A DNA stretch of 64,000 nucleotides, taken from assembly GCF_030160015.1 (NCBI RefSeq), contig NZ_BSNN01000004.1:186001-250000 (forward strand), in the 5' to 3' direction. This DNA is from Amylibacter marinus (GTDB taxonomy: Bacteria; Pseudomonadota; Alphaproteobacteria; Rhodobacterales; Rhodobacteraceae). The position numbers were made by a program, and so were the translations under genes. Shown piece after piece: positions 27,597 to 33,986 of the stretch (its first letter is position 1; the number at the start of each line of letters is the position of its first letter). Below the pieces are notes generated by a model, which saw nothing but the letters and a program-made list of their open reading frames with translations, was not told the origin of the DNA and made no database searches.

Positions 27597-28263
27597 GCGC
27601 CTAGGCTCATGCTGATCTATCAAATATGTTAAGCAGCAGAGATCAATGACCGAAGATTCTCTTATTCAATGCTTATAGTTTCCAACAAGAGTAGCCGCGG
27701 AAACAATGAAAGGTTGGGAGAGCTCCCCTAGCCCTGCCTCTCGTGATCTTAATCCACGTGACTGCTCTGATTGGGGCAACTAGGGGGTAAGTGCACGTAG
27801 CATCAACCGGGTACCAAGGTGACGTGCTGTAATTAAAGACGCAGGTTAGGCCTATGGGACTATCTAGACTTGGTCATCAATTTAATAGCTTGTAGCTAAA
27901 AACAAAACCACGCATCACCGTACCTTTAGATGTTCCGATTGAAACTGGAACAGACGAGTAAGGTCGCCTAGCATGTTCACAAGTTCAGTGGCGGAGACGA
28001 AGGGAGGCTCCACCATAAATCTAAACCCTTGGCAAATAGCGATATTCCGGAACGCATTTGCTGTGTTTGTCGCACTTGTGTGTCACACTAAGCTGGATGA
28101 TGCAACCTTATCGTTACCAGTAGCGAGGGAGGGTCACTGGTTGGCCTGACCGAAGGGTTTTTATATTATCCAGCATATATATATTATGGCCTTTCTATTG
28201 GTTTATATATTATTTATTCTAATCAATCACTTACAGCATTTACTCATATATAGAGATACTGCA
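27597..28263. other. Non-coding stretch spanning the left end of the integrated element
   Basis: There is no convincing gene in this 667-bp region. It contains a short palindrome TAGGCGCCTA right after mgsA (27594-27603), the left copy of the tRNA-Ser repeat (27989-28005), a 6-bp inverted repeat ACCAGT/ACTGGT (28116-28121, 28136-28141), and a very AT-rich tail (about 28155-28260) just beyond the end of the polymerase-like gene. The part left of 27989 should be the original chromosome downstream of the tRNA. Confidence 0.55.
27989..28005. repeat. Distal attachment-site repeat of the tRNA-Ser element
   Basis: The 17-bp sequence TGGCGGAGACGAAGGGA is identical to the 3' end of tRNA-Ser at 33894-33910, in the same orientation. 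Beyond it the two sites differ. A duplicated tRNA 3' end is the standard scar of tyrosine-integrase insertion, so this marks the far end of the element. Confidence 0.85.
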
Positions 28264-29676
28264 TCACGATTGCTGATGATCTTGATTGTCCCAAAAGGCC
28301 TGTAAACGCTCTAGATAGCCAATTGGGCTTAATAGCTCGTCCATATCTACTTCGACCATCTGTCCTGTTGTACTGATCTGTTCCCCAGCTCCAAGCTGGT
28401 AGCTGACTTCTCCAACTGCACCGAATTCATCTTCAAATGCTTCTTGCATGGCACTTGTCAGATCATCGAGAAGAGCATGATGAACGATGGAGCTGTCATG
28501 AACTGGTAAGCAAGCGTTACCCTGAGAGGCAAACTTTAACATAACTGTCTCCGCCAACATGCTGTCTCTAAATTGCAGCCGCAGACCTATTCCGGTTCCG
28601 AAATGATGTTCGAACTCTGGAAAGCAGCTGACTACATATAGAAGAAATTCTTGCCACGCCATGCCCATAAAATCTTCTCTGAAGCCGTCTATAGGGCTAA
28701 TCTTAATGGTGCTGTCTGCGTTTAACATTGCATTGAATGCCAGTTTAACAAGTTTGCGAGCGCTCTTATTGCTCCACTTAGAGTAGCAGTGTTCGTAAGG
28801 GTCCGAAGGGATTGCTTTTCCATCCATTGCATACAGCATAGCAGCGTGAAGGCCTGAGTAATCCACTTCAACAGTTGGCTTTCCATCGATCAGGATCAAA
28901 GGTCTTAGCTCTGAAGGAATGCTTATCCACCAACCACCATAAAACCGACCACCTTGTTCCCAATCATCATTATTGAAGACACGATGAACGGTCCTTGCAG
29001 CAAAGTCGAAAGATTGACTGGCTTCCTCCTTACGTTTTCCACTCACAGCAGCTTTGTGCGCGATCAGTTCGCTGTCTGGCAGCGCGATGTCAGCCCAGTG
29101 GTTTCGAAGCATCCTGTTGATTACCCGAAGTCGATCTCGTGCATCATTGGCAACTTGAATATCGCCATATTCGATCTTTTTCTTTTTTCCGTCCTTTAGG
29201 ATTATCCCCTCAGAGGCACTGTGCCGACGCAGGAGGGCAACGGAAGCGCCTGCACCACGTAGGGCGCTCAAGAGCATTTCTGACGCTCTGTGACGCGCTA
29301 CACGGCTCGTTTTTCCCGATGGATCGTGCCAATGGGGTGTCGTTATAATCACAAGGCCTTGGCTGATCAAAATGCTTAGCGCGTCCTGAAAGGTTCGAGC
29401 TGATATGAACGAAGCGCCATAGCGTGATTTACTCAATTTTTGTAAGGTAGTAGTGCCCGACGCGATCCCAACCTCCAAGTCAGGATTACTTTCATTGGCG
29501 CGATACAGGTCCAGCACAATTGCTTTTATTGCCGCTTCAAAGCTCGGCTGAGCATCGGACTTACGTTTTTTCAGACGCACCTCTGCCAATGTCATCTCTG
29601 TGCAAAGATCATCAAGATACTTCAGAAGCTCAGGTGCATCAGTGGTCCACTGTGGGTCAAATGGGCGTGCTGTCAC
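28264..29676 (-). CDS. Divergent family A DNA polymerase-like protein of the mobile element
   Basis: A 470-residue protein with no assigned name known to me. The C-terminal half matches the palm of family A polymerases: GGRFYG (242-247) then IPSELRP, motif A-like VEVDYSGLHAAML with D272, an O-helix-like NKSARKLVKLAFNAMLNA (303-320), a LQFRDSMLAETVMLKF segment like the conserved helix before motif C, and motif C-like LPVHDSS with H393-D394. The N-terminal half has a possible winged helix (about 90-140) but no exonuclease motifs. The start is GTG with AAAGGAG 13 nt upstream. It follows the NTPase gene by 65 bp. A role in element replication or in defence are both open. Confidence 0.6.
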   Translation of the reverse strand: MTARPFDPQWTTDAPELLKYLDDLCTEMTLAEVRLKKRKSDAQPSFEAAIKAIVLDLYRANESNPDLEVGIASGTTTLQKLSKSRYGASFISARTFQDALSILISQGLVIITTPHWHDPSGKTSRVARHRASEMLLSALRGAGASVALLRRHSASEGIILKDGKKKKIEYGDIQVANDARDRLRVINRMLRNHWADIALPDSELIAHKAAVSGKRKEEASQSFDFAARTVHRVFNNDDWEQGGRFYGGWWISIPSELRPLILIDGKPTVEVDYSGLHAAMLYAMDGKAIPSDPYEHCYSKWSNKSARKLVKLAFNAMLNADSTIKISPIDGFREDFMGMAWQEFLLYVVSCFPEFEHHFGTGIGLRLQFRDSMLAETVMLKFASQGNACLPVHDSSIVHHALLDDLTSAMQEAFEDEFGAVGEVSYQLGAGEQISTTGQMVEVDMDELLSPIGYLERLQAFWDNQDHQQS

Positions 29677-29741
29677 GTGTAGTATCTATCTCCTTTGGCA
29701 CATCACGATTGAAAACACGACTTGATGTGAATTACTGCAAC

Positions 29742-32072
29742 TCATTTCTTGAGTGATGAAAACATGTTGCCCAAGTCAACGTTGGAGAAGCCACTTCTGG
29801 CTGCCCCCAAAGGACTGGCAGGAGATGACGAGTTTGCGGATGTGCCAGAGCTAGCAGAAGACCGTCTTAAGCCACCTTCTTCCCTCATTTCTTGCATCTG
29901 CTGATCATGAAGCTGCTGCATGATCCATAGATCATCTTCAAGCTCCCTTCGTTTCCAGCTATCAACAGGATGCCCAAGATAACTCTCAATTTTCTCAATC
30001 TCTTCTAGCCATGTGCCAATAGCTGACTCGCGATCCTCATGGCCTGCTATGCCAGAAGGCTCCAAACTATCGATACTTTCCGTTGCTGCTTCTTCAAACT
30101 GTTCGAGTATGCATTCTGGCAGGTCTTCTCGATACATGGGCAAGTTGTCAGCAAGCATGCCTAATTCTTCGATTTCCAGAACATAGTCTCTCTTCGACAG
30201 GTACTTAAACAGTTGAAGTCGAAGCCACCTGCCGAATGCCTGTGCATGCTGCAATTCACTATATTTCCCAAACATCAGGTCATCTATGAGGTTAGGCAGC
30301 TCTACTTCATTGATCCAAGAACTGACGGACAATCCACCTCCACGCAAAAAATGGATAAAATCAGACGCCTTAGATTCGGAAATTAAATCTCCAAGAAAAG
30401 GTGCTAAATCTTCGAGAGGCAGCCGCCCCTTCACTGCACCAGACTTAATCTGTAACAGGATTACGGTTGCGACCTGAATGGTCTTAGACGGTTTCCCATT
30501 GAAATATTCGGACGCGAATTTCCACAAGTCTGCTGCATTGTCGAATGTCGATATTGAACGAGATAGTCGATCCAGAATTTTAACATCATTCAACCTACGC
30601 GCCAGAAAGTCCTGTACCGAAGGATTTATGAAATTTACCGTTCCTCCTTGAAGTACAATAAATGATGATTTGATTTCTCGGAGTGTATCTTCGAAGCGGC
30701 TCTCTGGAATGGTTCCGTCACTCTCGATAGAAAAAGCCGATAGCGCTCTTTCAAAAAAATCGCGCAACTTTTCTACCTTTATGCCTCTCGCAACTCCACT
30801 ACCTTCAATGAAGGTCTCATGTCTCGATAAGTACATGCAATACAGCATCACACGCGCCGCGCCGCTGATATGATTCTGGAAAGGCTTTTCCCAAACCTTC
30901 TCAGGGTTATCGAGTGCTTGTATAAACGTGCGTGGGTATTCTTCAGGGTCAGCATCTCTAAATCGAACATGGTCTGTCATCCACTGTACGATGCGCGGCA
31001 TATAGTGCGGATGATCAACAATACGGGAGACGGTATCGCCCACTAAAAGCGCCCCGATAGCACTTTCTTCAAGACCTGAGTGATATAAATGGTTGTACAA
31101 AATTCGAGCTTTGATCTCTCTCGTATAAACGTCGAGATCAAGGATCATCTCTGTTAATTCCACCTGATCATCATCTAGTGATTCAGAAGCGGTTCGTGCC
31201 GTTTCTAGTATGTACTTACGTGTGGTTAAAATGAACCGCTTTGTAGTCCGCCCAGCGACGAGCCGCATAAAACCAGCGATTTTTGCGTCATCTTTCGCCA
31301 ATGATCTCGCATCAAGTTTGATCTTGCCAAGGAAGTCGTCAAAAACAAAGACCTGCTTGTTTTCAGGATGGAACGCTTCATAGCCTTGCTCGATGCTACT
31401 TATCGCGACAAGTTCCCAACCGTCTTCGCAGTGTTCTGCCGCCAAAACTTGCGATAACGTTGTCTTTCCCACACCGGGCGGACCGGAAACTATCAAGCAA
31501 TGTTGTTTCTTCAAAATTTTTGCAGCTGTCGGTAGGCTTGGATTGGCAACAAACACCTTAAGTATGCGCTCTATGCCTTCTTTAGTTGCTTCAGTGAAAA
31601 CTGCTATGTCGTTAGTGAGTAATCGCTGAAGCACCGCCGCGCTTGAAAGCCAAAGCTTAATGTTACTCTTTTCGACATCACTATGCTTTCTTATCAGAGC
31701 GTTTAGCTCGGTCCTCCCGAGAATGTTCGATACCGCAACCGAAGGGTGGTTTAAGTGGTTTTTGAGCGAAGTTTTTCTATCTGGTGTCAACTTTTGAGAC
31801 GTCAGAAAATAGTACGTACTGGGACTGAGCTTACGAATCTTCGGGGATTCTTTTTTCGCTGAGGTCTCCAAGTCAGCCCATGTACTGTTTTTGTAGTGTT
31901 TGGCCTGAAGAATTACATTGCCCGATGCACTGCTGTGTCGTGCATCAATGCCGCCATCCGCACCTTCCGAGAACGTTTCAAACCGTACTCGACATTCCGC
32001 ACTCATAAGATCAGCTACGAGAGCTTCAAATTCGATGGGTGATAAATTACCAAAGTCATACTGGTCGGCCAT
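29742..32072 (-). CDS. Mrr-type nuclease fused to a STAND-like NTPase (putative defence protein)
   Basis: A 776-residue protein. Residues about 1-130 form a restriction-endonuclease-like Mrr domain: E14 in SPIEFEALVADLM, D43 in EGADGGIDAR and Q56-A-K58 in VILQAKHYKN, giving the D-QxK catalytic pattern, then TSQKLTP. Residues about 180-400 form a P-loop NTPase with Walker A GPPGVGKTT (197-205) and Walker B VFVFDDFLG (241-249), of the kind called nSTAND3. A long helical C-terminal region may serve as sensor, ending in a Ser/Gly-rich tail. The ATG at 32072 follows GAGAG. The architecture resembles Avs-like anti-phage NTPases; target and activity are inferred. Confidence 0.78.
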   Translation of the reverse strand: MADQYDFGNLSPIEFEALVADLMSAECRVRFETFSEGADGGIDARHSSASGNVILQAKHYKNSTWADLETSAKKESPKIRKLSPSTYYFLTSQKLTPDRKTSLKNHLNHPSVAVSNILGRTELNALIRKHSDVEKSNIKLWLSSAAVLQRLLTNDIAVFTEATKEGIERILKVFVANPSLPTAAKILKKQHCLIVSGPPGVGKTTLSQVLAAEHCEDGWELVAISSIEQGYEAFHPENKQVFVFDDFLGKIKLDARSLAKDDAKIAGFMRLVAGRTTKRFILTTRKYILETARTASESLDDDQVELTEMILDLDVYTREIKARILYNHLYHSGLEESAIGALLVGDTVSRIVDHPHYMPRIVQWMTDHVRFRDADPEEYPRTFIQALDNPEKVWEKPFQNHISGAARVMLYCMYLSRHETFIEGSGVARGIKVEKLRDFFERALSAFSIESDGTIPESRFEDTLREIKSSFIVLQGGTVNFINPSVQDFLARRLNDVKILDRLSRSISTFDNAADLWKFASEYFNGKPSKTIQVATVILLQIKSGAVKGRLPLEDLAPFLGDLISESKASDFIHFLRGGGLSVSSWINEVELPNLIDDLMFGKYSELQHAQAFGRWLRLQLFKYLSKRDYVLEIEELGMLADNLPMYREDLPECILEQFEEAATESIDSLEPSGIAGHEDRESAIGTWLEEIEKIESYLGHPVDSWKRRELEDDLWIMQQLHDQQMQEMREEGGLRRSSASSGTSANSSSPASPLGAARSGFSNVDLGNMFSSLKK

Positions 32073-32238
32073 GTAATTAGCTCTCGTGAAATTCAATTAC
32101 TAGTCAACCAATTGGCGAACTCTCCAAAGGCCTACTACTACATTTCGCTTTACGCTCAAAGGCGCTGCGATAAAAAATGAAACATTTTTCCATGCCCATA
32201 TACTCTACTAGTTGCGCTCAAATTTCCCCCAATGCCCT

Positions 32239-33825
32239 TCACAATTGGAACCTCTCTATGGTCTCTTTCAGTTGAGTAAGTGTGTATCTTTCCCGCATGT
32301 AGACTTGGAAGGTGACGCCCGCTTGTTCATGTCCAACTATGCACTTGGCCTTTTCTGGTGGGGCCTCAGCTTGGATCAATCTTGTGATCATCGTATGCCG
32401 GAAGCTGTGGAAGACGTGGCGGGGTGTTTTGATGCCCAACTTCGGGGTGAAGCTCTCATTGAACCACCGACCTAGGTTTCGACCATAGCCGTTTGACTTC
32501 GTAAACCGATAGTCGGGGAAGAGTTGTTTTCCACGTTGGCGTGACTGGTAGAAGTCAAGAAACCCTGCATCGATCAAGGCGCTATGGACTGGCACCTTGC
32601 GCTTACTGGCCTTGTTTTTCACTTCTTTCTGGTTCTCGCCCTCGTCGGAGATATTGAAGTGCCAAACACCATCTGTTTCCTGAACATCCTCAACTAAAAG
32701 TTGAGCAACCTCGTTGAGCCGCGCACCTGTAAACATGCCGATCAATGCGCCCCACTTATGGCTTTCACTTTTGACCAAGCCAGACCTGTTCGATGTCAGC
32801 TCAATGAACATGGTGTTCATAGCATCAGGCGTGAAAGGCAATCGTTCTTCCTTGGTGGCATTGGCGCGGCCAACTTTCATACCTTCAAACAGTTTTTCAT
32901 GGATGTAGCCGTTCTTTTTGGCCCATCCGAAAAATGCAGCAAAAGCCTGCAAGTACCAGTTCAATGTCTCGACACTGATCTTGCTGAGACCATCAACTTT
33001 TGTCGCATCTCTTAGGCTTAAGTCACGTGTGGCAGGCAGGGTTTTCTGACGGGCTGGCAACTCCATCATCAGCTTCTTTGCCTCTTGCGCATCCCTTTGT
33101 GAGATTGAGGTAAGAACCCTGTCCTGTCCAAATATCTCAATCAAGTGATCTAAAGCGCGACGGTTCTTTTCTGCTGTCTTTCCTCGCCAAGTCTTGGCCC
33201 GTGCTTGTTCGTCCAGATAGTCTCGAATAGCATCGCCCAACGTGGTTTCGTTAGATGCTGCAATGGCTTTGCTAACTGCTCGCCCATCATTGCCAAACTC
33301 ATAGCTATCCAAAGTTTTGTAGTGCGCAAGGACAGCTCGAAGATGATCTCGGTCAGCCTTCCGTATTTCCCGCAACAAGAATGTTTCGTTGTCGGTCCAC
33401 TGCTCTTCTGTCAGCTTAGCAGCCTTTCGAAACCCAACAAGGTTAAGCATCTGATCAGAAACTTCCGTGTCACCATCGACAGCCTCATCATGGAAGTCGA
33501 TCCCATTTTGAATGGCCGTGATCTGCATAGGCGACAAGCCACGCTTGTTCACACGATCAATATGCTTGTCTAACACAGATTGGAAAAACTTGCGGACCAT
33601 TTCCCGCATTTCATCTTGTCTCAGCCCTGCCAATGCGCTGCTTTCCCTTAGCTTTTCGCCCGATACTGTAAGCAATCTTGCAAGCCGTCCAGCCCGTTCT
33701 GGGCAACGAGTTCGTAAAGATACTCTAAACGTGGCTCGTTTTGGTTGATGATCCGTTAACGGCAACGGCCATCTAAAGTAATAAATGCCGTGGCGTGAGG
33801 GACTTAGGTACGCGTCGAATTTCAT
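32239..33825 (-). CDS. Tyrosine recombinase (integrase) of the tRNA-Ser element
   Basis: A 528-residue phage-type integrase. An N-terminal arm-binding region and a core-binding SAM-like domain (about 200-300) precede the catalytic domain, which has the first arginine in GMFTGARLNEVAQL, HSFRHTMITRLI (H-x-x-R), the second histidine in CIVGHEQAG, and the nucleophile tyrosine in VYMRERYTLTQL. The first ATG, at 33825, is chosen; an in-frame GTG 15 bp upstream is possible. It starts about 70 bp from the tRNA-Ser 3' end, the usual place for an integrase that uses that site. Confidence 0.9.
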   Translation of the reverse strand: MKFDAYLSPSRHGIYYFRWPLPLTDHQPKRATFRVSLRTRCPERAGRLARLLTVSGEKLRESSALAGLRQDEMREMVRKFFQSVLDKHIDRVNKRGLSPMQITAIQNGIDFHDEAVDGDTEVSDQMLNLVGFRKAAKLTEEQWTDNETFLLREIRKADRDHLRAVLAHYKTLDSYEFGNDGRAVSKAIAASNETTLGDAIRDYLDEQARAKTWRGKTAEKNRRALDHLIEIFGQDRVLTSISQRDAQEAKKLMMELPARQKTLPATRDLSLRDATKVDGLSKISVETLNWYLQAFAAFFGWAKKNGYIHEKLFEGMKVGRANATKEERLPFTPDAMNTMFIELTSNRSGLVKSESHKWGALIGMFTGARLNEVAQLLVEDVQETDGVWHFNISDEGENQKEVKNKASKRKVPVHSALIDAGFLDFYQSRQRGKQLFPDYRFTKSNGYGRNLGRWFNESFTPKLGIKTPRHVFHSFRHTMITRLIQAEAPPEKAKCIVGHEQAGVTFQVYMRERYTLTQLKETIERFQL

Positions 33826-33893
33826 GGCCTTGTGTTCCACCTATGTGGTGCACCGGACGCTATCAACTTGTAAGTCATTGATTTTAAAGTAAA

Positions 33894-33910
33894 TGGCGGA
33901 GACGAAGGGA
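33894..33910. repeat. tRNA-proximal attachment-site repeat
   Basis: The copy of TGGCGGAGACGAAGGGA that forms the 3' end of the intact tRNA-Ser, including its encoded CCA. It matches 27989-28005 over 17 bp. Confidence 0.85.
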
Positions 33911-33986
33911 TTCGAACCCTCGAGACAGCTACAAACCGCCTACTCCCTTAGCAGGGGAGCGCCTTCGACCACTCGGCCACGTCTCC
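33894..33986 (-). tRNA. tRNA-Ser (anticodon GCU)
   Basis: A 93-nt class II tRNA on the minus strand. The acceptor stem pairs GGAGACG with CGTCTCC, and CCA is encoded. The anticodon stem CTCCC/GGGAG encloses CTGCTAA, giving GCT, which reads AGC/AGU serine codons. A long variable arm and the T loop GGTTCGAATCC are present. Its 3' end is the integration site of the mobile element, which rebuilds an intact gene. Confidence 0.95.

Follow-up and report, generated by a model that had tools for sequence, protein, structure and literature searches.

A 5.9-kb island inserted at a tRNA-Ser gene of Amylibacter marinus (genome of 2.72 Mb, 99.98% complete) carries only three genes, encoding an integrase, a nucleoside triphosphatase with an Mrr-type nuclease domain and an nSTAND3 module (the NTPase) and a PolA-like protein (POL), and the question that it raises is whether the last two act as partners. 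The island lies in a stretch of 64,000 nucleotides (positions 186,001 to 250,000 of contig NZ_BSNN01000004.1), referred to here as the window, whose numbering is used below. A preliminary description of this DNA had read it as an island integrated at tRNA-Ser whose genes encode an integrase, an NTPase of defence type and a PolA-like protein, which holds, and had taken the two cargo genes for a two-component defence or conflict system, which does not. The island is one of the widespread small tRNA-inserting elements built on an integrase and a little-studied miniature polymerase. POL is a backbone gene of the element, and the NTPase alone is exchangeable defence-type cargo. The island is a minimal example of the TV-Pol-type elements, and the conserved site of about 20 bp found 3' of POL is new here.

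The integration signature is present as first described. A perfect 17-bp repeat (TGGCGGAGACGAAGGGA on the + strand) stands at both ends of the island, one copy being the 3' end of tRNA-Ser; only these two copies were found in the whole assembly, and the reversed pattern gave none. The integrase gene lies beside the tRNA, and three non-overlapping minus-strand open reading frames (ORFs; counted from 80 aa upwards) fill the interval, in the order integrase, NTPase, POL from the tRNA (Table 1).

The supposed pairing was then followed through 390 genomes of the order, an even draw from a larger group of that order. Relatives of POL were found in 59 of them (E <=1e-5) and relatives of the NTPase in ten (E <=1e-20), four of the latter matching only its first ~150 residues. 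Both genes occurred together in 2 genomes, against 1.5 expected by chance. In the second of these (G264) POL and the NTPase are on different contigs, each cut at the contig end, so that they may still be adjacent there. Moreover, no POL was seen in the stretches viewed at nine NTPase-related loci of other genomes, one of which ends at a contig end, and the NTPase lies inside only one of 56 distinct POL elements with both ends visible, namely the A. marinus island itself. The closest relatives of POL (80, 79 and 61% identical) are in other tRNA islands with other cargo. With co-occurrence at chance level, no POL at the NTPase loci and the NTPase missing from 55 of the 56 elements, the pairing looks specific to this island. 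The two genes are indeed adjacent on one strand, 65 nt apart, and the NTPase matches the PADLOC candidate family PDC-S73 (E 1.5e-132, residues 12-530), a candidate defence family of unproven function whose match leaves out the portion past residue 530. In any case, a two-component system of POL and the Mrr-nSTAND3 NTPase is highly improbable, and we rejected it on co-occurrence and genomic context.

The exchange of cargo on a shared backbone is seen directly in the island of Rhodobacteraceae bacterium HTCC2083 (locus L114), which is also in tRNA-Ser and ends exactly at the repeat. Two blocks are shared with the window, one with integrase and tRNA (32179-33986, 83.5% DNA identity) and one with POL and the attachment (att) repeat (27989-29704, 79.3%, from the first base of the repeat). 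Instead of window 29705-32178, which holds the NTPase, HTCC2083 has about 6.7 kb of other DNA encoding a type I methylase, a specificity subunit, a weak match to a TIR effector and a PDC-S18 match. Since the homology starts exactly at 27989 and stops at 33986, the 5' end of the tRNA, the island borders are independently backed. The two integrases are 88% identical, with nonsynonymous (dN) and synonymous (dS) divergences of 0.071 and 0.93, and the corresponding values for POL (dN 0.12, dS 0.95) indicate purifying selection. At locus L113, in a tRNA-Cys gene, POL is 80% and the integrase 46% identical to those of the window.

The same scene of tRNA, integrase, repeat of the tRNA 3' end and POL recurs around relatives of POL. 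The sampled POL loci were 79 kept out of 242 matches, and the 56 bounded elements are those of 133 scanned loci that had both ends inside the stretch (63), less 7 duplicates. They measure 4,853 to 14,065 bp and occupy 13 tRNA types: Cys 13, Gln 10, Ser 9, Ala 4, Gly 4, Val 4, Leu 3, Asn 2, Met 2, Tyr 2, Glu 1, Phe 1 and Thr 1. An integrase ORF lies within 55 of the 56; in the remaining one (L142) the called integrase ORF extends past the border. Among POL loci of at least 19 kb from a scan of GTDB (n=43), an integrase was present at 42, a tRNA at 36 and a tRNA-end repeat at 29, the corresponding numbers for 20 arbitrary 19.5-kb control regions of POL-bearing genomes being 1, 2 and 0; the profile behind the integrase counts drew on integrases from 34 of the first 61 loci and on four others, a choice that biases it towards detecting integrases close to POL. 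Of those first 61 loci, 52 of which contain POL, 34 had the integrase cluster and 15 the next in frequency, a resolvase cluster (C2, one member of which was confirmed as PF00239). At L161, L184, L190 and L097 POL is split into two open frames, so decayed copies exist.

Cargo proteins of the other elements were compared with flanking proteins for defence-type matches. At E <=1e-10, 100 cargo proteins matched 415 PADLOC models and 100 flanking proteins matched 73, the figures being distinct models rather than proteins. The samples, all of at least 230 aa, were drawn from 147 proteins inside (48 of 55 other elements) and 310 outside. DNA methylases and type III restriction enzymes lead the Pfam tally of the sampled cargo, and the cargo of L063, related to that of the elements with restriction-type cargo described below, is a type III methylase with ResIII.

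As regards POL itself, sequence searches gave little. No Pfam match above cut-off and no NCBIfam match were obtained, the Pfam matches of 30 relatives were weak and scattered, and a sequence search of the Protein Data Bank (PDB) returned no meaningful match; the family phrog_4756 was matched at 1.6e-36. In the AlphaFold model (pLDDT 93.6) the fold is closest, among solved structures, to DNA polymerases of family A and to single-subunit RNA polymerases, among them the apicoplast polymerase (5dkt; Z 12.0, 4.0 Å over 248), the yeast mitochondrial RNA polymerase (8c5s; Z 10.3) and T7 RNA polymerase (1h38; Z 10.3). The active site is conserved. In an alignment of 78 sequences G243, R244, R258, D272, Y294, K311, H393 and D394 are invariant, and the landmarks of TV-Pols can be placed on it: the beta-hairpin Arg before the palm is R244 (GGRFYGGWW; model strand 242-246; 78/78), the two metal-binding palm Asp are D272 and D394 (both 78/78), and the fingers Asp and RxxxK motif are D292 (77/78), R307 (77/78) and K311 (78/78). 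As in TV-Pols, no nuclease family was matched in POL, leaving aside a weak PADLOC match to REase_II at E 0.012, and the gene belongs to mobile elements, beside an integrase (55/56) or a resolvase (15/61 loci). The POL profile had no match, at E up to 1, in the Microcystis phage Ma-LMM01, a named TV-Pol host, so kinship with all TV-Pols rests on features and not on score. The cellular-type DNA polymerase I (PF00476) is found at one locus of the same genome, outside the window.

Relatives of POL are also common in phages. POL matches MG592441.1, the genome with the divPolA2 model protein (E 1e-4), a Barba31A protein is among its best structural matches (E 2.9e-19 by fold), and the POL relative from L105 has matches in 115 Rheinheimera phage records. 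Gp100 of phage ICP1 (ORF100, annotated as hypothetical; L195:11026-12693) falls in the family with a profile E of 4.0e-41. In all, 127 phage records with homologues were reached through the window protein and 220 through a relative from an IMG/VR contig; they are mostly phages of Vibrio, Rheinheimera and Aeromonas, of 80-145 kb among the matches listed, with one or several relatives in many Vibrio and Aeromonas phages. Judged by these structural landmarks and sequence matches, POL is a TV-Pol-type polymerase homologous to the divPolA2 of phages. POL could also be accessory, for instance a counter-defence or phage-parasitism gene with which a phage satellite exploits or hinders the replication of a helper phage, and not the replication gene of the element itself. 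The homologues in phage records, ICP1 gp100 included, agree with this, as do the variable neighbourhoods of the barbavirus homologue, found beside a regular PolB (PMC11348598), and the transduction of some tRNA/tmRNA islands by phages (PMC12595487). However, besides the integrase, POL is the gene common to these islands whatever their cargo, and packaging genes are missing from the Pfam list of the sampled cargo, which is capped at its 25 commonest families. We regard an accessory role of POL as improbable.

Downstream of POL, a short non-coding stretch (28100-28158) is conserved in HTCC2083, at tRNA-Ser (91% over 58 nt), and in L113, at tRNA-Cys (88% over 51 nt). Within it lies a motif of the pattern CATTAC-N-GG-N2-A-N2-ATAAGG, searched with up to 2 substitutions. 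POL genes were taken as distinct if they scored 200 bits or more, had no 90-residue stretch in common and were followed by 200 nt or more of DNA. Among 112 such genes the motif was present downstream, on the sense strand, at 26, a count for which the pattern and its training strings were derived from the very sequences counted. By identity to the POL of the window, it was present at 13/17 with >=40%, 12/60 with 30-40% and 1/35 below 30%. The motif was found neither upstream nor antisense of POL within about 300 nt, nor on either strand of 780 kb of control regions, and once in 2240 shuffled windows. Across 129 POL loci, duplicates included, 36 matches lay close to the 3' end of POL; of the 4 others, three were further downstream within POL elements.

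An RNA-structural element was not supported as a reading of the motif, given the single-sequence fold 3' of POL (z -0.47), the consensus folds described below and the lack of any Rfam match over threshold at the locus except the tRNA. Inverted repeats around the motif were seen by eye in part of the window group (e.g. L116, L118), and the consensus fold gave them no support. With no shared RNA fold, a double-stranded recognition site is likelier. A role as part of the att or integrase site is not favoured, because the motif follows POL in both orientations and at varied distances from tRNA and integrase; the integrase may nevertheless bind it. The motif may be a start site for POL, with POL itself as a candidate for binding it.

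Further copies were noted around the cargo of some elements. At L067, L136 and L179, which have restriction-type cargo, the POL-side motif recurs as a 20-21-nt direct repeat on both sides of the cargo (90-100% identical), and L172 and L103 have a weaker second copy. In the tRNA-Gln elements L054, L070, L078, L164, L176, L177 and L191, POL is flanked by long inverted repeats, which measure up to 443 nt and are as much as 100% identical, with the motif ATAGGNATAAGTAATG or a close variant in both arms. In L054, L070 and L191 the repeats extend as far as the 3' end of tRNA-Gln, and both orientations of POL occur, as though the module were able to invert.

The chief rival to a role in replication is that POL is a single-subunit RNA polymerase and the motif, ending in NATA-AGG, its promoter. 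From there, transcription in the excised circle would cross the joined att into integrase, NTPase and POL, and in some other elements it would enter cargo genes. The residues of the active site speak for this. At the position five residues after D272, assigned by motif spacing and presumably the sugar gate that discriminates against ribose, 67 of the 78 sequences have His, 7 Asn, 2 Gln, 1 Trp and 1 Ser. Motif C reads HDS in 71 and HDE in none, and the T7 and SP6 sequences have HDSFG in their RNA polymerases and HDE in their DNA polymerases. The signature of cellular-type Pol I (sugar-gate Glu, HDE in motif C) is absent, with Glu at either position in 0/78. The roles of residues in ribose discrimination are in part those given in PMC7581432. 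As the catalytic Asp are kept but the two Glu typical of DNA polymerases are absent, priming or the use of ribonucleoside triphosphates (rNTPs), for primers or transcripts, is plausible from the sequence. The arrangement of some loci also agrees with a promoter: in L136, L165, L172 and L179 the motif stands 65-77 nt ahead of the next gene (in L172 a type III methylase), and in L047/L132, a single record, an extra ORF separates POL from the motif, which still precedes the next gene by about 70 nt. The fold matches to mitochondrial and T7 RNA polymerases point the same way, and for the phage relatives the 2024 paper (PMC11348598) considers an RNA polymerase and leaves the choice between DNA and RNA polymerase undecided. 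On the other hand, in L115-L118 transcription from the motif in the sense of POL would run antisense into the integrase, the spacing of motif A looks DNA-polymerase-like by eye, and no homologue of the T7 promoter-binding domain was established in POL, whose N-terminal domain matches residues 61-258 of T7 RNA polymerase at Z 5.8, tied with unrelated chains. The motif may resemble the promoters of T7 or of yeast mitochondria. On balance, a promoter-using RNA polymerase seems rather unlikely.

With modest confidence, we favour a replicative backbone with the order tRNA-Ser att, integrase, cargo slot, POL, cis motif, att, in which POL maintains or amplifies the circle and the NTPase is a passenger. 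The integrase would excise the element at the 17-bp core, an act to which the signature at the borders points, and the excised circle would be maintained or amplified by POL as a TV-Pol-type single-subunit polymerase. Alone or with host proteins, POL would start synthesis at or near the ~20-bp motif; its product would be a primer or a short strand, to be extended by the host replisome and completed by host enzymes. Cargo would ride along and be exchanged as a block, here the Mrr-nSTAND3 NTPase, which would be dispensable for mobility and not the partner of POL, and which probably protects the host cell, and hence the resident element, through DNA cutting or an abortive response on sensing phage. 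A stronger version is put forward as a tentative possibility: as a single polypeptide, POL would recognise the CATTAC-GG-ATAAGG site beside its gene and start synthesis there from rNTPs (or both kinds of nucleotide), and the islands would form a large class of replicons with a family A polymerase.

Several points weigh against a replicative backbone. Excision, replication and polymerase activity are predictions for all members, as is binding of the motif by POL. The motif accompanies a minority of the distinct POL genes, the pattern misses 4 among the 17 closest, and the tRNA-Gln group has a different one; no shared RNA fold was found for it, the consensus folds having 2 and 3 pairs with almost no covariation. 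The N-terminal domain of POL gave only weak matches, to winged-helix and ribosomal proteins (best Z 6.5), and alignment of the POL profile with T7/SP6 RNA or DNA polymerases (hhalign) was not significant (probability 1.1 and 1.5%), nor did a profile search of T7 give a match. No helicase, single-stranded DNA-binding protein (SSB) or MP partner was recognised among the three island ORFs, unlike the CCPol-MP-Cch2 system, and phage divPolA2 has been judged most likely not to be the replicative enzyme (PMC11348598). Cargo extends beyond defence, with PALP (lyase-type), arginase and RTX repeats in the Pfam tally, and the chromosomal DNA flanking the elements also has some PADLOC matches. Finally, no empty site with alignable flanks was found in the genus, the flanks being too diverged.

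Table 1. Position and supporting evidence of the features of the A. marinus island (window coordinates)
Feature	Position	Strand	Evidence or remark
tRNA-Ser (GCT), target gene of the island, complete	33894..33986	-	ARAGORN; Rfam RF00005 2.7e-11
Attachment repeat copy 1, final 17 nt of tRNA-Ser	33894..33910	-	exact repeat
Tyrosine integrase (INT), ATG start	32239..33825	-	PF00589 2.2e-10; DUF6538; phrog_1 1.5e-41
Cargo slot, segment wholly unlike between the A. marinus and HTCC2083 islands	29705..32178	.	
Mrr-nuclease + nSTAND3 NTPase, exchangeable defence-type cargo	29742..32072	-	nSTAND3 3.6e-47; Mrr_cat 3.8e-6
POL, compact family-A-type (TV-Pol / divPolA2-like) polymerase, 470 aa, GTG start	28264..29676	-	fold, residues
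Non-coding stretch of 59 nt with the motif	28100..28158	-	conserved in HTCC2083 and L113
Cis motif 3' of POL, candidate initiation/recognition site	28106..28125	-	CGCTACTGGTAACGATAAGG; two substitutions from the pattern
Attachment repeat copy 2, distal island border	27989..28005	-	exact repeat; HTCC2083 homology stops precisely there

The surroundings of the target site vary among relatives. Across 33 genomes of the genus the tRNA-Ser 17-mer occurs once in 18, twice in 3 (A. marinus counted) and not at all in 12. DNA of the left flank of the island has a match in only 1 of 61 genomes, its own, and in relatives with tRNA-Ser beside serB the DNA downstream of the tRNA differs. In one genome of the same genus (G003:C1:468102-472849) the 17-mer occurs twice on one strand, 4.7 kb apart, perhaps marking a second small island at the same site. 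At L222, past the tRNA-Ser beside serB, the apparent start of another integrase gene was seen by eye, so the site may be reused. Outside the distal repeat, window 27611-27988 has no ORF of at least 60 aa as far as the neighbouring ORF, which we take to be methylglyoxal-synthase-like; it is possibly a remnant of earlier insertions.

Pipolins combine an integrase and a self-encoded polymerase (piPolB) with tRNA att sites and variable cargo. Their polymerase is of family B, whereas the fold of POL matches family A. If the stronger version of the replicative reading is true, the tRNA islands described here correspond to pipolins and carry exchangeable defence genes among Rhodobacterales and further afield. 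The tmRNA/tRNA defence islands such as I55 (PMC12595487) likewise have tRNA-type sites, a tyrosine integrase, direct repeats and defence cargo, but their core is intY and alpA, and the word polymerase is absent from the main text of that paper. A family A polymerase without nuclease, in an integrative element and beside a recombinase, is found in CCPol-MP/Cch2 of SCCmec (PMC7581432), in which a conserved helicase-bound site adjoining the operon is a preferred priming start, the closest parallel to our motif that was found. CCPol differs in keeping the equivalents of the ribose-discriminating E710 and F762, where POL has H, and N or L in most sequences, and in needing MP for priming; no gene for MP or a Cch2-type helicase was recognised in the A. 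marinus island. The PolA-SSB primases (PMC10061031) are grouped with CCPol as related systems.

With divPolA2 of barbaviruses and Vibrio phages (PMC11348598) POL shares an active palm, the lack of an exonuclease and an N-terminal domain of its own. The divPolA2 genes are in phage genomes and POL is in tRNA islands; as the word integrase is absent from the main text of that paper, the link from divPolA2 to tRNA islands is made here. It ties the additional polymerase, so far unexplained, of phages of Vibrio, Aeromonas and Rheinheimera (ICP1 gp100 included) to islands with anti-phage-type genes, and, if the stronger version of our reading is true, divPolA2 of barba phages and ICP1 is the same enzyme as POL. 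Neither this link nor the motif was found in the literature covered, although some of it may already stand in Additional file 1 (neighbourhoods) of Iyer 2008.

POL also agrees with the TV-Pols, for which both priming and polymerisation were predicted (PMC2579912; Iyer, Abhiman and Aravind 2008) and of which, to the knowledge of the authors of the 2020 CCPol paper (PMC7581432), no other member had been characterised. Shared with them are the beta-hairpin Arg, the two palm Asp, the fingers Asp, RxxxK, the lack of a nuclease domain, a length of 400-600 aa and, in a subset, an additional N-terminal domain, and their published alignment includes several Rhodobacterales. Integrases, resolvases and restriction operons around TV-Pol genes were already noted there, with a gamma-delta resolvase or lambda-type integrase adjoining and restriction-modification operons near; a difference is that no D5 helicase gene is present in the A. 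marinus island. The tRNA att borders, the cis motif and the swap of cargo on the backbone are described here. The TV-Pol family is now tied to a small natural test system of three genes with exact borders and a candidate start site, and the conserved site makes the primase-polymerase prediction of 2008 testable.

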